A DNA stretch of 64,000 nt from Halapricum salinum (GTDB lineage: Archaea; Halobacteriota; Halobacteria; Halobacteriales; Haloarculaceae). The notes beneath the pieces are model-generated. The model was not told where the DNA came from. It saw only the letters and a program-made list of their open reading frames with translations, and did not search any database. The stretch spans positions 1,356,887 through 1,420,886 of the forward strand of contig NZ_CP031310.1 of the NCBI RefSeq assembly GCF_004799665.1, given 5' to 3'. The position numbers and the translations under genes are program-made. Shown one piece after another: positions 5,283-37,299 of this stretch. How positions within the stretch are numbered: the stretch's first letter is position 1; the number at the start of each line of letters is the position of its first letter.

Positions 5283-6125
5283 CTATCTCTCCCGTACGAC
5301 CACGAACTTCGCCAGATCCTCCAGATACTCCAGTGCAGCCTCGTCGGCGACGTCTATCGTCGACAGCGCTTCCAGCGCGGCGTCGGACTCCTCGCGAGCA
5401 CGCTCGTTGGCCTCCTCGGGCGTGAGGTCGGTCACCTCGACCAGCGAGGGCCGTTCCATCGCGGCGTCCTGGCCCGCCGGCTTGCCCAGGGTTTCGGGGT
5501 CGGCGGTCGCGTCTAGCACGTCGTCGCGCATCTGGAAGGCGACGCCCACTCGCTCGGCGTAGTCGCCGACGGCCTCGATCGTGTAGGCGTCGGCGTCGGC
5601 GGCAATCGCGCCCAGTTCCGCGGCCGCCCTGAAGAGCGCACCCGTCTTCCGCCGAGCGAGCGTCATGTACTCCTCTTCGGAAGCGGGCTGCTCGACCAGT
5701 TCGGAGGCCTCGCCCTCGCCGAGTTCGACCATCGCTTCGGCGACGACCTGCATGGCGCGTTCGTCGCTCGAAAAGAGGGCGAACGCCTCACCCAGGAGGC
5801 CGTCGCTGGCGATGATCGCGGGGCCGTGGCCAAAGGCCGCCCAGGCGCTCTCGGAACCGCGGCGGAGGTCGGACTCGTCGATGATGTCGTCGATCACCAG
5901 CGAGGCGTTGTGAACCAGCTCGATCCCGACCGCGAAGTCGACGGCGTCCTCGGGCTCGCCGCCCAGTGCCTCACAGACCAGGACGGTGACCGTGGGACGG
6001 ACGCGTTTGCCGCCAGCGAGGACGACGCTGTCGATCTGTTCGCGCAGGGCGTCGGGTTCGACGGCGTCGACTGCCGCCTCTAATCGCTCGGCGACGAGCG
6101 ACCGACGGCGCTCCAGATACTCCAT
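5283..6125 (-). CDS. Short-chain isoprenyl diphosphate synthase (polyprenyl synthetase family)
   Basis: 280 residues from the ATG at 6123-6125. GGKRVRPTV near residue 38 binds the isopentenyl diphosphate, the first Asp-rich motif is DDIID at 79-83 followed by LRRG, and the second is QMRDDVLD near 213. Trans-prenyltransferases of this type condense isopentenyl diphosphate with allylic diphosphates; in haloarchaea they supply geranylgeranyl or farnesylgeranyl chains for lipids and carotenoids. Chain length cannot be assigned safely here, although the carotenoid genes at 48.6-51.3 kb would need such a product. Transcribed in the same direction as thsA but separated from it by a 397-bp repeat-containing gap. 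Confidence 0.88.
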   Translation of the reverse strand: MEYLERRRSLVAERLEAAVDAVEPDALREQIDSVVLAGGKRVRPTVTVLVCEALGGEPEDAVDFAVGIELVHNASLVIDDIIDESDLRRGSESAWAAFGHGPAIIASDGLLGEAFALFSSDERAMQVVAEAMVELGEGEASELVEQPASEEEYMTLARRKTGALFRAAAELGAIAADADAYTIEAVGDYAERVGVAFQMRDDVLDATADPETLGKPAGQDAAMERPSLVEVTDLTPEEANERAREESDAALEALSTIDVADEAALEYLEDLAKFVVVRER

Positions 6126-6522
6126 CGAACCCGTCCTTCGAACTGGGTCGGCAAGTACGTGACGGTCAGCAGTAGGAACGGAAAGAAAATCGGACGCGAG
6201 CGACGAGGCGCTGAGAGTGTTTCGAGAGAGTGCGGAGCGGTGGCCGCGCTGGCGGCTTGTCGCCAGCGTCCGGGGAAGGGCAGGCCTGCTGAGCGGTTGC
6301 GGTGCGGGAGCGGTGCGGTTAGTGTCCAGCATACGGCGACGCAGTCGCCGTTTTCCCGTCAGAGCTTCGCTCTGACGACGTTCACGTCGTTGCACTCCGT
6401 GAACCCCCGGAATCGCCCTGATAAGGCGATTCCGGCTTTTTTCCCCAAGTTTTTCTCGCGCAGTGGTGCCCGCAGCGCGCCTTGCAGGGCGCGCGAGGAC
6501 ACCCGAGCGAGAAAAAGTGGGT
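6126..6522. repeat. Intergenic region with modular 3' repeat element (copy A, at about 6230-6522)
   Basis: No gene is visible between thsA and the prenyl synthase. Read on the minus strand, starting 3 bases after the thsA stop, it contains: CACTTTTT, a variable hairpin (GCGCGCC/GGCGCGC), GCTGCGGGCACC, the linker AAAAACTTGGGGAAAAA, a hairpin CCGGAATCGCC/GGCGATTCCGG, further insert sequence, the hairpin ACGGCGAC/GTCGCCGT followed by ATGCT, and finally GCAGGCCTGCCCTTCCCC at 6272-6289. The same ordered modules follow serB, polC and metY. The T-run just after the stop suggests transcription termination. Bases 6126-6229 hold the promoter region of the prenyl synthase. Confidence 0.75.
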
Positions 6523-8190
6523 TCACATCATGCCGCCCATGCCGCCGCCCATACCGCCCATGCCGCCGCCGGGCGCACCGCCGGGACCGCCCGCGTCTTC
6601 GCCGCCGGAGGTCGACAGATCGCCGGCAGCGATGATATCGTCGATCTTCAGCACGAGGTTCGCGGCTTCGGCAGCCGAGGAGACGGCCTGGGACTTGGCG
6701 TGGGCCGTCTCGACGACGCCGGCCTCGTAGGTGTCCTCGACGTCGCCGCTGAAGACGTTCAGACCGGCGCGTTCGTCGCCAGACTCGTGGGCGGCGCGGA
6801 GGTCGACCAGCGTGTCGATCGAGTCCAGGCCGGCGTTCTCGGCGAGGACGCGCGGGATGAGTTCCAGCGAGTCCGCGAAGGCCTCGATAGCGAGCTGCTC
6901 ACGGCCGCTGATTGAGTCGGCGTAGTCACGCAGACGGGAGGCGAGTTCGACCTCGACTGCACCACCGCCAGCGAGGACGAGACCGTCGGCGACCGCCGCG
7001 GCGACGACGTCGAGGGCGTCGTTGACGCCGCGTTCGAGTTCGTCGACGACGTGGCCGGTCGAACCGCGAAGCAAGAGGGTGACGCCGTGGGAGTTCTCGC
7101 CCTCGACGACGAACCAGCCACTGTCGTCGTCACGGGAGACGGTGCCGGTTCCGAGATCCGCGGCGGTGAGGCTGTCCAGATCGGAGACGATCCGGGCGTC
7201 GACGACCTCCTTGAGGAACTCGATGTCGGACTGTTTGGTCCGCTTGGTCGCGAGGATTCCCTCCTTGGCCAGCAGGTGCTGGACCATGTCGTCGACGTTC
7301 TTCTGACAGAAGACGACGTCCGCGCCCGAGGCCTTGATCGTCTCGACCATGTCCTTGAGCTGCTGTTCCTCCTGCTCGACGAACTGCTGGAGCTGGGAGG
7401 GGTCGTCGACGCTGAGCTGGGCGTCGGCGTTGGCCTCCTGGATCTCCAGTGCGGTGTCGAGCAGAAGAACGTCGGCGTCCTCGAAGTCCGTCGGCATGTC
7501 CTCGTGTGCGGGGTCGTCCTTGACGAGGACGCCCTCCAGCAGCTCGGATTCGGCGGCGGTCGCACCGGACTCGCTGGTGATGTTGAGGAACTCCAGATCG
7601 ACCACAGTAGAACCGTCCTCGGCCTCGACGGAGACGTGCTCGATGGCGTCGACGACGAGCTGGGCGAGCAGGTCCTTGTTCTGCTCTGCGCCCTTGCCCG
7701 TCATCGAGGTCTCGGCGACCTGCTTGAGGACCTCGGTGTCGTCGACGTCGATCTCCTCGGCGATGTCGTCGATCTCGCTTCGGGCCTGCTTCGCGGCCAT
7801 GTCGAAGCCCTTGATGATCGCCGTCGGGTGGATGTCCTGCTCCAGCAGGTCCTCGGCGTTCTTCAGGAGCTCGCCCGCGATCGAGACCGCGGAGGTCGTG
7901 CCGTCGCCGGCCTCGTCTTCCTGGGTCTCGGCGACCTCGACGATCATCTCCGCGGTCGGGTTGTCGATGTCCATCTCCCGGAGGATGGTGACGCCGTCGT
8001 TGGTGACGGTGACGTCCCCCGTGGATGTGACGAGCATCTTGTCCATCCCCTTCGGTCCGAGCGTCGAGCGTACCGACTCGGCCACCGCGCGGGCCGCAGA
8101 GATGTTGTGGCTCTGTGCGTCCTTGTCCTGCATCCGCTGGGAATCCTCGCCCAGAATAATCATGGGCTGACCCTGCATTCGCTGGCTCAT
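6523..8190 (-). CDS. thsA: Thermosome (group II chaperonin) subunit
   Basis: 555 residues. The sequence has all group II chaperonin hallmarks: LGPKGMDKML near residue 44, VTNDGVTIL near 63, the ATPase motif GDGTTSAVSIAGELL near 94, and the late LVLAGGGAVEVELA segment. The tail is the Gly-Met-rich repeat (GGMGGM type) found on haloarchaeal CCT subunits. It folds proteins in an ATP-dependent double ring in the cytosol. The ATG at 8188-8190 gives the usual MSQRMQGQPM start. A TATA box (8217-8226) lies about 30 bp upstream. Haloarchaea usually have two or three paralogous subunits, so the specific number (cct1/cct2) is not assigned. Confidence 0.95.
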   Translation of the reverse strand: MSQRMQGQPMIILGEDSQRMQDKDAQSHNISAARAVAESVRSTLGPKGMDKMLVTSTGDVTVTNDGVTILREMDIDNPTAEMIVEVAETQEDEAGDGTTSAVSIAGELLKNAEDLLEQDIHPTAIIKGFDMAAKQARSEIDDIAEEIDVDDTEVLKQVAETSMTGKGAEQNKDLLAQLVVDAIEHVSVEAEDGSTVVDLEFLNITSESGATAAESELLEGVLVKDDPAHEDMPTDFEDADVLLLDTALEIQEANADAQLSVDDPSQLQQFVEQEEQQLKDMVETIKASGADVVFCQKNVDDMVQHLLAKEGILATKRTKQSDIEFLKEVVDARIVSDLDSLTAADLGTGTVSRDDDSGWFVVEGENSHGVTLLLRGSTGHVVDELERGVNDALDVVAAAVADGLVLAGGGAVEVELASRLRDYADSISGREQLAIEAFADSLELIPRVLAENAGLDSIDTLVDLRAAHESGDERAGLNVFSGDVEDTYEAGVVETAHAKSQAVSSAAEAANLVLKIDDIIAAGDLSTSGGEDAGGPGGAPGGGMGGMGGGMGGMM

Positions 8191-9958: not shown

Positions 9959-10038
9959 ATACGGTCGGTTGTAAGTCTGTTCCGGATCGATCGCACAGTC
10001 ATGCGATCGCACCGGTAAATCGTTACAACCGACCGTAT
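9959..10038. mobile_element. 80-bp palindromic element (copy 1), MITE-like
   Basis: Perfect 16-bp terminal inverted repeats: ATACGGTCGGTTGTAA at 9959-9974 and its reverse complement at 10023-10038. Inside, CGATCGCA (9988-9995) pairs with TGCGATCG (10002-10009) around the loop CAGTCA, and CCGG at 9982-9985 and 10012-10015 extends the dyad. The boxes AGTCTGTTCC (left) and GGTAAATCGTTAC (right) are shared with the copies at 34.9 and 37 kb. It occupies the divergent promoter gap between the acetyltransferase and serB, so it could also affect their transcription. Confidence 0.75.
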
Positions 10039-10730: not shown

Positions 10731-10945
10731 AACCACTTTTTACTTCGTCGGGTGTCCTCGCGAGCGCATAAAAGCGCTCGCTGCGGGCACCTCTCCTCGT
10801 AAAAACTTGGGGAAAAAGGCCGGAATCGCCTTGCGAGGGCGATTCCGGGGAAACGGCGGCCTGCGGCCGCCGTATGCTTGCCAACTCCGCAGCCGCAGGC
10901 CTGCCCTTCCCCGGTTCGCGCGGTCACGACACGCGCTCACGGCCG
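10731..10945 (+). repeat. Modular 3' repeat element, copy B (after serB)
   Basis: Starts at the serB stop. Order of parts: ACCACTTTTT; hairpin CGAGCGC/GCGCTCG; GCTGCGGGCACC; linker AAAAACTTGGGGAAAAA; hairpin CCGGAATCGCC/GGCGATTCCGG; GGAAACGGC; hairpin ACGGCGGCC/GGCCGCCGT followed by ATGCTTG; then GCAGGCCTGCCCTTCCCC at 10901-10918 and a short GC hairpin. It lies between the convergent serB and serS genes. Compared with copy A, linkers are almost identical while two of the hairpin stems carry paired changes. Confidence 0.8.
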
Positions 10946-34855: not shown

Positions 34856-34906
34856 ACCCTCTCTGGGTCCTCACCCGAGTAGAAACCAGTGGTTCTTCGC
34901 CGATTC

Positions 34907-34980
34907 ATAGTGATTACTGTCGGTCTGTTCCACATCGACCGCCCGGAGTCGGGCGGTCGTAGTGGTAAATCGCTACACTA
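34907..34980. mobile_element. Palindromic element copy 2 (right end truncated)
   Basis: Left arm ATAGTGATTACTGT (34907-34920), then GGTCTGTTCCACATCGACCG, hairpin GACCGCCCG/CGGGCGGTC around GAGT, and GGTAAATCGCTACA. Bases 34921-34977 match 37121-37177 with two differences. The right arm is imperfect (TACACTATCAC) because the element runs into the stop codon of the peroxiredoxin fusion gene at 34981. It represents the uninterrupted form of the 37-kb element. Confidence 0.7.
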
Positions 34981-36402
34981 TCACTCCGAGGACTCTCGCT
35001 GGTCGCCCTCGCTGCCTTCCAGTTCGGCAGCGATTTCGGCGACTTCTTCGTCCGAGACATCCGCGTCCTCGCGCTCGTCTTCGTCGCCGTCCGCGCGGTC
35101 CTCGCCACCGCTTTGCTGTTCGAGTTCGGCTGCGATCTCGGCGACTTCCTCGTCTGAGACGTCCGTGTCCTCGTCACTCTCCCGCTCGCCGTCCGCTCGC
35201 TCATCCTCCGCGAGTTCGACCGGCTCGGTTCGGTTGTCCTCGACCGGTTCCTCGGCCTCGGGTGCGACCGCACCGACGGCGTCCTCGATCTGGCCGGCCT
35301 CGGCCCCGCCGGAATCGCCCATCTCGACGCCCTTCCCGCCGTACTCGCGGGCGCGGCGCTCGGCCTCGGTCTCCATCCCCCGTTTGTCTTCGTCCTCGTC
35401 GTCGTCGATCTCGACTTCCTCGACTTCGAGGTCGACACCGCCGGCGGCTTCGAGGTCGTCCTCGTCGGCGGCCTCGTCGCGGATCTCGTCCATGATCGAG
35501 GTCTTCTCTTCGCGTTCGAGGAGGATCTCACCGTCTTCGCTGACGATATCGTCCGGGTTCAGCGGTTCCTCGATGTCACGGGCGGTCTCCAGCGGCGCCT
35601 CGGCGTCCTGACGGTACCCCTCGCCAACGGCCCCGTCGCCACTGGAGTAGGCGTCTGCGGCGTCGGCCAGCCAGTCGGCAGCCTGCCACAGCGAGTTGGC
35701 CTTGCTACGAGCCCGATCGAACGGTTCGTCCAGCACTGGCGAATCGCTGAATCGGAAGGCCGTGTCGAACTCCTCGGCGGCCTCCTCGAACTCCTCGCGA
35801 GCCCGCTCGAAGTCGCTCCGGGCGATCATCCAGTCGTGGTCGCCGAACCCGTTCATCGCACTCGTGAACGCCCGCCGCCCCTCGACGTAGTGGGCGTGGC
35901 CGACTCGATACCGAGAGAGGGCCGTCGAGTCGCCGCCGATCGCTTCCACTGTCACGCGGATGGGTTCGACCTGCGGGAGCTCGTAGGGGTCGCTGGTCGT
36001 CCAGCGATACTGGATCATCCCGTTGAGATCGATCACGAACACGGCTCGCTGGAGCAGATACCCTTCGTCGCGGTCGTCGACGACGTCGTAGGCCTCGCCC
36101 ACCTCTCGACGAGTGTCGCTCAAAAGTGGGACCTTGAGGTCGTAGCGGTCGGCGAAGACGCGGTGGCTGTGGACGCTGTCGGGCGAGATCGCCAGGATCG
36201 TCACGTCCTTCTGCATGGTGAAGAGATCGAGTTCGCCGACGTCCGATCCCTCCTCGTCACAGGCGGGGTTGAAGTCCGCGGGGTAGAACATGAGGATCAC
36301 GACCTCCTCGCCGAGGTACGAATCGAGGGACTGGCGATCGAATTCGCCGTCGACCACCCCTGGCAACTCGAAGGTCGGCGCGTCGTCCCCCGCTCTGGGC
36401 AT
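34981..36402 (-). CDS. Peroxiredoxin-like protein with long acidic C-terminal extension
   Basis: 473 residues from the ATG at 36400-36402. Residues 1-150 are a peroxiredoxin/AhpC-TSA domain: APTFELPGV, VVILMFYPADFNPACDEEGSDVG with one Cys at the peroxidatic position, then TILAISPDSVHSHRVFADRYDLKVPLLSD and AVFVIDLNGMIQYRW. Residues 170-270 form a helical domain, and the remainder is Glu/Asp-rich, with the peptide DVSDEEVAEIAAELE occurring twice near the end. No second (resolving) Cys is seen, so it would be a 1-Cys type. The helical/acidic extension is unusual and may mediate assembly. A TATA box (36419-36428) precedes it by about 22 bp. Confidence 0.8.
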   Translation of the reverse strand: MPRAGDDAPTFELPGVVDGEFDRQSLDSYLGEEVVILMFYPADFNPACDEEGSDVGELDLFTMQKDVTILAISPDSVHSHRVFADRYDLKVPLLSDTRREVGEAYDVVDDRDEGYLLQRAVFVIDLNGMIQYRWTTSDPYELPQVEPIRVTVEAIGGDSTALSRYRVGHAHYVEGRRAFTSAMNGFGDHDWMIARSDFERAREEFEEAAEEFDTAFRFSDSPVLDEPFDRARSKANSLWQAADWLADAADAYSSGDGAVGEGYRQDAEAPLETARDIEEPLNPDDIVSEDGEILLEREEKTSIMDEIRDEAADEDDLEAAGGVDLEVEEVEIDDDEDEDKRGMETEAERRAREYGGKGVEMGDSGGAEAGQIEDAVGAVAPEAEEPVEDNRTEPVELAEDERADGERESDEDTDVSDEEVAEIAAELEQQSGGEDRADGDEDEREDADVSDEEVAEIAAELEGSEGDQRESSE

Positions 36403-37001: not shown

Positions 37002-37023
37002 GGGCGTCCGACGCGGGAATACT

Positions 37024-37188
37024 CATAGTGATTACTGTATAGTAACAATTGAAACGATTTACACACCGATCGCACTGTTGTCGTGCGATCGTGTGTGCAT
37101 TGACTTTCAATGGCTACTATAGGTCTGTTCCACATCGACTGCCCGGAGTCGGGCGGTCGTAGTGGTAAATCGCTACAGTAATCACTAT
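37024..37188. mobile_element. Palindromic element copy 3, with an inserted copy 4
   Basis: Outer ends ATAGTGATTACTGTA (37025-37039) and TACAGTAATCACTAT (37174-37188) are perfect 15-bp inverted repeats. The interior right part (37121-37177) matches copy 2. Relative to copy 2, 82 bp (37039-37120) are inserted after GATTACTGT. It occupies the gap between tsr3 and cydA. Confidence 0.75.
37039..37120 (-). mobile_element. Palindromic element copy 4, nested in copy 3 and in reverse orientation
   Basis: 82 bp with its own ends ATAGTAACAATTGAAA (37039-37054) and TTTCAATGGCTACTAT (37105-37120), complementary at 14 of 16 positions. A central stem GATCGCAC/GTGCGATC is flanked by ACAC/GTGT. On the minus strand it carries GTAAATCGTTTCAATTG, the right-hand box of the family. 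Confidence 0.75.
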
Positions 37189-37299
37189 CAGTCCTACCAA
37201 AGTTTACGCTACGCATCTAAGTGCCTTTCGGGGATTCGCACCTCGTGCAGTCATACAGCCCGTTTTTTGACGCTCAATGGCATTAGACGACGTAAATAG

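Follow-up and report, generated by a model that had tools for sequence, protein, structure and literature searches.

In the window analysed here, a 64,000-nucleotide stretch (positions 1356887-1420886) of the 3,452,056-bp chromosome of Halapricum salinum (G000, below the own genome), one short palindromic element is interrupted by another. We put the probability at roughly 0.8 that this composite represents one hairpin class inserted into a second, that the two classes share one architecture and populate haloarchaeal genomes, and that they are mobilised in trans, each following its own target rules.

Read from the sequence, the composite consists of ATAGTGATTACTGT (37025-37038), an 82-bp insert (37039-37120) and AGGTCTGTTCC...CACTAT (37121-37188); together with its flanks (37023-37190) it reads TCA TAGTGATTACTGT [82 bp] AGGTCTGTTCC...CACTA TCA (Table 1). 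These coordinates and this composition had been given in an earlier note on this DNA and were borne out, as was its description of the 82 bp as a full element in reverse orientation whose ends are complementary in 14 of 16 positions. A covariance model of the element family matched 37039-37120 in minus orientation, at 75.5 bits, and the host in plus orientation. When the 82 bp were removed, the remaining element differed from the copy at G000:2291312-2291393 by two substitutions and no indel, and three uninterrupted copies (L010, L016 and L018) carry exactly ACTGTAGGTC at the junction. The same note had equated the composite with the copy at 34907-34980 plus 82 bp and nothing else. Alignment did not uphold this, as the 34907 copy differs from the excised composite by C for A at the junction, one further substitution and an altered right arm, and it is because of this arm that it makes the poorer uninterrupted reference. 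Its right TCA is the stop codon of a redoxin gene (34981-36402, minus strand).

The insert's entry point in the host, ACTGT|AGGTC, lies 2 bp ahead of the host internal loop. The target within the host arm is GTAG and the outcome is ACTG-TA-[80 bp]-TA-GGTC, and the net gain of 82 bp is compatible both with an 80-bp element that duplicated TA and with an 82-bp element that duplicated nothing. Six full copies of the 82-mer are present in the own chromosome, all within unrelated flanks, and three of them, the window insert included, are mutually 100% identical. Since five other chromosomal copies resemble the insert at 90-100% identity (two at 100%) and folding gives z-scores of -8.9 to -10.5 for host-type elements and of -5.8 for the insert, the insert stands far above chance, and the nested insertion at 37039-37120 is confirmed as real.

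Table 1. Family elements and their parts in the window (window coordinates)
Feature	Position	Strand	Basis or remark
Host hairpin element (TNA class), split by the 82-mer	37025..37188	+	left part 37025-37038, remainder 37121-37188; sequence and family model
Inserted 82-bp hairpin element (CTAG/TA class)	37039..37120	-	six full chromosomal copies; model match 75.5 bits
TA at left junction of insert, possible target duplication	37038..37039	.	read from sequence
TA at right junction of insert	37120..37121	.	read from sequence
Left TCA, target duplication of host element	37023..37025	.	TNA same on both sides in 23/30 family copies
Right TCA, target duplication of host element	37188..37190	.	sequence and family pattern
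Host left internal-loop motif GTCTGTTCC	37123..37131	+	
Host right internal-loop motif GGTAAATCG	37164..37172	+	
Insert right internal-loop motif TGTAAATCG	37055..37063	-	
Second host-class copy, altered right arm	34907..34981	+	TCA on both sides (34905-34907, 34981-34983)
Third family copy, ATACGG...CCGTAT arms, uninterrupted	9959..10038	+	87.9 bits

Both classes are about 80 bp long (80-82 bp) and fold alike, with a 16-bp stem, a 7x7 internal loop, a short stem, a 2x2 loop, a 9-bp stem and a small loop. The outer 16-bp stem starts with ATA in both; the right loop motif has TAAATCG in common between the classes, and the left one GTC. Across 24 own-genome copies, 93.7% of the pair cells are standard pairs, compared to 24-53% for slid structures, a figure that is favoured by the structure having been drawn from these same sequences; the two-sided, compensatory changes found at 17 of the 29 pairs are informative. 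For the 82-mer, 154 copies from many genomes keep 14 of the 16 outer positions paired in 90-99% of copies. Lacking coding capacity and bounded by terminal inverted repeats (80-82 bp, 16-bp stems), the elements qualify as MITEs in the broad sense. Among elements of one type, called kat2 here (L119, L152, L155 and others), the apical loop can point either way with respect to the arms, as though flipped within the hairpin.

The host family amounts to about 45 copies in the own genome and comprises several arm types (ATAGTGATTACTGTAG, ATAGTGGTTGCTGTAG, ATACGGTCGGTTGTAA and others); the arms vary from copy to copy, and the internal motifs GTCTGTTCC and GGTAAATCG are constant. Elements sit mostly between genes. 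The 82-mer was detected in eight of the 59 genomes searched (own genome counted) and was not found in five genomes of the same genus; more than 100 loci carry it in named haloarchaea such as Halomicrobium, Natrinema, Natrialba, Haloarcula and Natrarchaeobius, and it was found in 48 plasmids. Matches to the family model are wide and patchy, with 44 of the 145 haloarchaeal genomes and 21 of the 49 genera represented, and one Haloquadratum plasmid, PL47, gave none. Viral contigs yielded no match to the 82-mer, and 15 of them matched the host class by a loose pattern only.

Several further features were observed in this survey. The third family copy of the window has a GNAT acetyltransferase frame on one side and a HAD hydrolase gene on the other and may occupy a promoter region; a stop-codon location for it was considered and dropped after family searches of the neighbouring frames had placed it between these two genes. 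A weak model match at 6052-6134 (minus strand, 34.9 bits) falls within a long reading frame and may be a decayed copy or due to chance. Two inverted repeats of about 120 bp (6405-6523 and 10731-10850), separated by 4.2 kb and with 72-92% complementarity in pieces, adjoin a Cpn60/TCP-1 chaperonin gene. Elsewhere, two 82-mers (L161, 166-425; L197, 2146-2340) hold about 100-170 bp of GC-rich repeat DNA in the hairpin loop, and others (L122, L124, L137, L174, L191 and L228) are tandem, adjacent or overlapping, several with a common CTAT/ATAG junction.

The two classes differ in where they insert. The 82-mer is flanked by CT|AG in 90 of 176 copies, and T at -1 and A at +1 are present in about 90%; CTAG is the main determinant of its entry. 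This tetramer is depleted about fivefold in the window, where it occurs 39 times compared to 212 expected from base composition. Because flanks that deviate from this pattern in most cases lack a mirrored change at the ends of the element, a TA duplication by the 82-mer is possible rather than proven. The host class enters CTNAG and duplicates TNA, which is the same on both sides in 23 of 30 own-genome copies; this target duplication, a further mark of MITEs, was also confirmed against an empty site. The duplicated TNA is mostly TCA or TGA and often a stop codon, and an open frame of 80 codons or more terminates at 14 of 29 copies, compared to 20% of random TGAs. Targeting of stop codons as such was considered and rejected, selection for harmless sites being a sufficient explanation. 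A spread that does little harm is suggested by insertion at CTAG, which is rare here, and at TGA stops, where the duplication restores the stop.

Relatives provide filled and empty sites for both classes. In the Natrinema species N. gari and N. altunense, a single 82-mer makes up the whole difference at one locus, and of the 82-mers in the related Halomicrobium plasmids pHmuk01 and pLC1Hm-01, several face an empty site in the other plasmid. The same plasmid pair holds a host-class element at AACTGA...TGACGCC opposite AACTGACGCC, which is a direct TGA duplication, and at one further site there are four extra bases beyond a simple insertion. These filled and empty sites in Halomicrobium show precise insertion. 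Because composite loci are bare or empty in sister genomes, the order from empty to single to nested is visible in living relatives: within the Halomicrobium group, the L236 locus carries the 82-mer on its own in G119 and neither element in G028, which gives composite, single and empty states of one locus in three genomes; a bare 82-mer is found at the L129 locus in G119 and another at the L152 locus in G028. G119 agrees with H. mukohataei in its plasmid coordinates, and G028 belongs to the same genus. For the nesting in the window itself, the orthologous locus in genomes of the same genus is without both elements, the intergenic DNA being too diverged to align, and no exact empty site was found there. 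At one intergenic spot (L298, G028:C1:1813100-1813350), an unrelated-arm element of the ATACTGCC type occupies the place where sister species have an 82-mer.

Nesting also occurs in the reciprocal direction. In H. katesii, elements with ATACGG...CCGTAT arms have split five 82-mers at AATTG|A and duplicated TGA; the inserted element is of the type kat1 in four of these composites and of the type kat2 in one, and both types also stand alone at CT[C/G]A sites. Other elements occupy the same 82-mer arm position in Natrarchaeobius and N. ejinorense, and in pLC1Hm-01 a ATACTGCC-type element sits in the other arm of the 82-mer, at the mirror position. Since five different elements occupy one 82-mer arm position, there must have been no fewer than five independent events. 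Gene conversion may have contributed to the four kat1 cases in H. katesii, and any nesting rate taken from these loci is a biased estimate, since they were gathered through their 82-mers. Mobility of the elements is shown by copies in unrelated surroundings, by sites found both filled and precisely empty, by TNA duplication, by the stepwise states in relatives and by reciprocal nesting.

The earlier note had read the composite as a non-coding mobile element nested in another of its kind and had added that such elements prefer their own arms as target. The first part stands: the insert occurs alone, the host occurs without it, and the relatives pass through empty, single and nested states; the note had named a 164-bp form always found as a unit, with no 82-bp form elsewhere, as what would speak against its reading, and bare 82-mers clearly contradict this. 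The second part is, as a general rule, not supported. Insertion at the arm position recurs in other genomes for TNA-class elements entering the 82-mer, but in the opposite direction homology places only one of 176 82-mer copies, that of the window, inside a host-class element. A looser hairpin screen returned 14 of 176 copies compared to 12 of 463 random points, the 14 being mostly tandem, terminal or unrelated palindromes, and the host arm's GTAG at the entry point is a secondary target of the 82-mer; therefore, an arm preference of the 82-mer is not supported.

These observations fit a picture in which the class of the 82-mer enters CTAG-like sites at T|A, the host class enters CTNAG with duplication of TNA, and an 82-mer entered the host element of this chromosome at GTAG. 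DDE-type enzymes make staggered cuts of 2-3 nt at symmetric sites. We infer that a protein of such behaviour, which acts in trans and cuts symmetric targets with a stagger of 2 or 3 nt, may move both classes and may recognise the ATA termini together with the subterminal loop motifs.

A transposase with ends matching those of the elements, the search for which the earlier note had proposed, was looked for and not found. The own genome gave no match to IS630 (PF13358), Y1 (PF01797) or the IS5-type family PF13586. It encodes two proteins with PF01609 (DDE_Tnp_1), neither with obvious terminal repeats, of which one is ISH3-like and common on plasmids and the other is rare. The rare one (L273, 1297-3162, minus strand; 621 aa), with one distant plasmid relative, is a candidate mover. 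Partial matches led to no longer, gene-bearing version of the elements, only to truncated copies and to a few whose loop contains additional repeat DNA, and no recognisable transposase was seen among the genes between close pairs of the same type when these were inspected by eye.

Some known IS groups, among them subgroups of the IS5 family, use TA or TNA targets. The strongest competing explanation, which we regard as a serious possibility at somewhat below even odds, is that the elements are MITEs of the ordinary sort, derived from a known DDE insertion sequence, and that the autonomous copy of this sequence has been lost from the genome or falls outside the families tested. Terminal inverted repeats, duplications of 2-3 bp in symmetric sites and the lack of coding capacity agree with it, and MITEs can outlive their parent, as exemplified by mobile MITEs of Haloquadratum without a functional parent transposase (PMC3119063). 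It accounts less well for arms that differ strongly across subfamilies around constant internal motifs and for the failure to find a gene-bearing version; moreover, PF13586 was above cut-off in none of 16 genomes, and IS630 was present in eight of the 16 and did not parallel element number. More tentatively, and in our view rather doubtfully, the elements could form a haloarchaeal superfamily of structured hairpins whose mover, an enzyme of a kind hitherto unrecognised, reads free arms and fixed loop motifs instead of constant terminal sequences, with two related target modes (TA in CTAG, TNA in CTNAG) and arms that are repeatedly targeted by one another.

Movement by a Y1 HUH transposase that reads the hairpin as single-stranded DNA in trans, which would make the elements REPIN/RAYT-like or IS200/IS605-derived in the manner of PATEs, seems improbable to us. 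Short, mostly intergenic hairpins of high copy number, with free arm sequence and conserved unpaired motifs, would suit such an enzyme, and PATEs and IS605-type elements are common in haloarchaea, but PF01797 had no match in the own genome or in G028, both rich in elements, and the targets are symmetric with a 3-bp duplication in the host class, whereas IS200/IS605 elements duplicate nothing (PMC3119063). Least credible of all is spread by homologous recombination or gene conversion, or a fixed RNA or terminator structure with nesting as a replication accident: conversion among 82-mers could partly explain the four H. katesii composites with nearly the same inserted element, and palindromes are prone to template switching, as the element type with a flipped loop may recall, but the existence of filled and empty sites largely refutes it, and precise junctions at short motifs, unrelated flanks, empty sites with one copy of the target, the occupation of the same arm position by different elements across species and the absence of an Rfam match in the window all stand against it. 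Under the favoured reading of two trans-mobilised hairpin classes, these gene-less elements of about 80 bp offer an architecture, target rules, identical copies, empty sites and nesting by which the question of their mover becomes testable.

A literature search, with most subscription journals outside its reach, found no paper describing the element family, but comparable systems are known. REPIN/RAYT elements (PMC3116915, PMC2817692) are likewise hairpin-forming, non-coding, of high copy number and moved in trans; here, by contrast, a target duplication is present and two element-rich genomes contain no Y1 transposase. The IS605-derived PATEs differ from the present elements, which have terminal inverted repeats and, in the host class, a TNA duplication. 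MITEs in general, and the palindromic MITE-like repeats of bacteria such as Correia/NEMIS, RUP, ERIC and YPAL (PMC2229807, PMC10969869), are also short, non-coding and mostly intergenic, with terminal inverted repeats, often TA termini or duplications and long stem-loops, whereas here the arms vary with compensatory changes around two fixed loop motifs and the searches described above found no parent IS. A further comparable system comes from Haloquadratum walsbyi, for which Dyall-Smith et al. (2011; PMC3119063) reported small mobile repeats lacking a transposase, with 192 nested events, in which SMR-A was inserted into PATE palindromes and the mover was reported as unknown. Judged by this published description, SMR-A and SMR-B are similar to our elements in being haloarchaeal, about 80-110 bp long and present in many copies, with inverted terminal repeats, no transposase, ends unrelated to known transposons and a location in palindromes of small elements; they differ in that SMRs were reported without target duplication, whereas the host class here duplicates TNA, and in that SMR-A mainly enters PATEs and IS605-type elements, whereas the 82-mer mainly enters CTAG. 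Nested small mobile repeats have thus been known from Haloquadratum since 2011.
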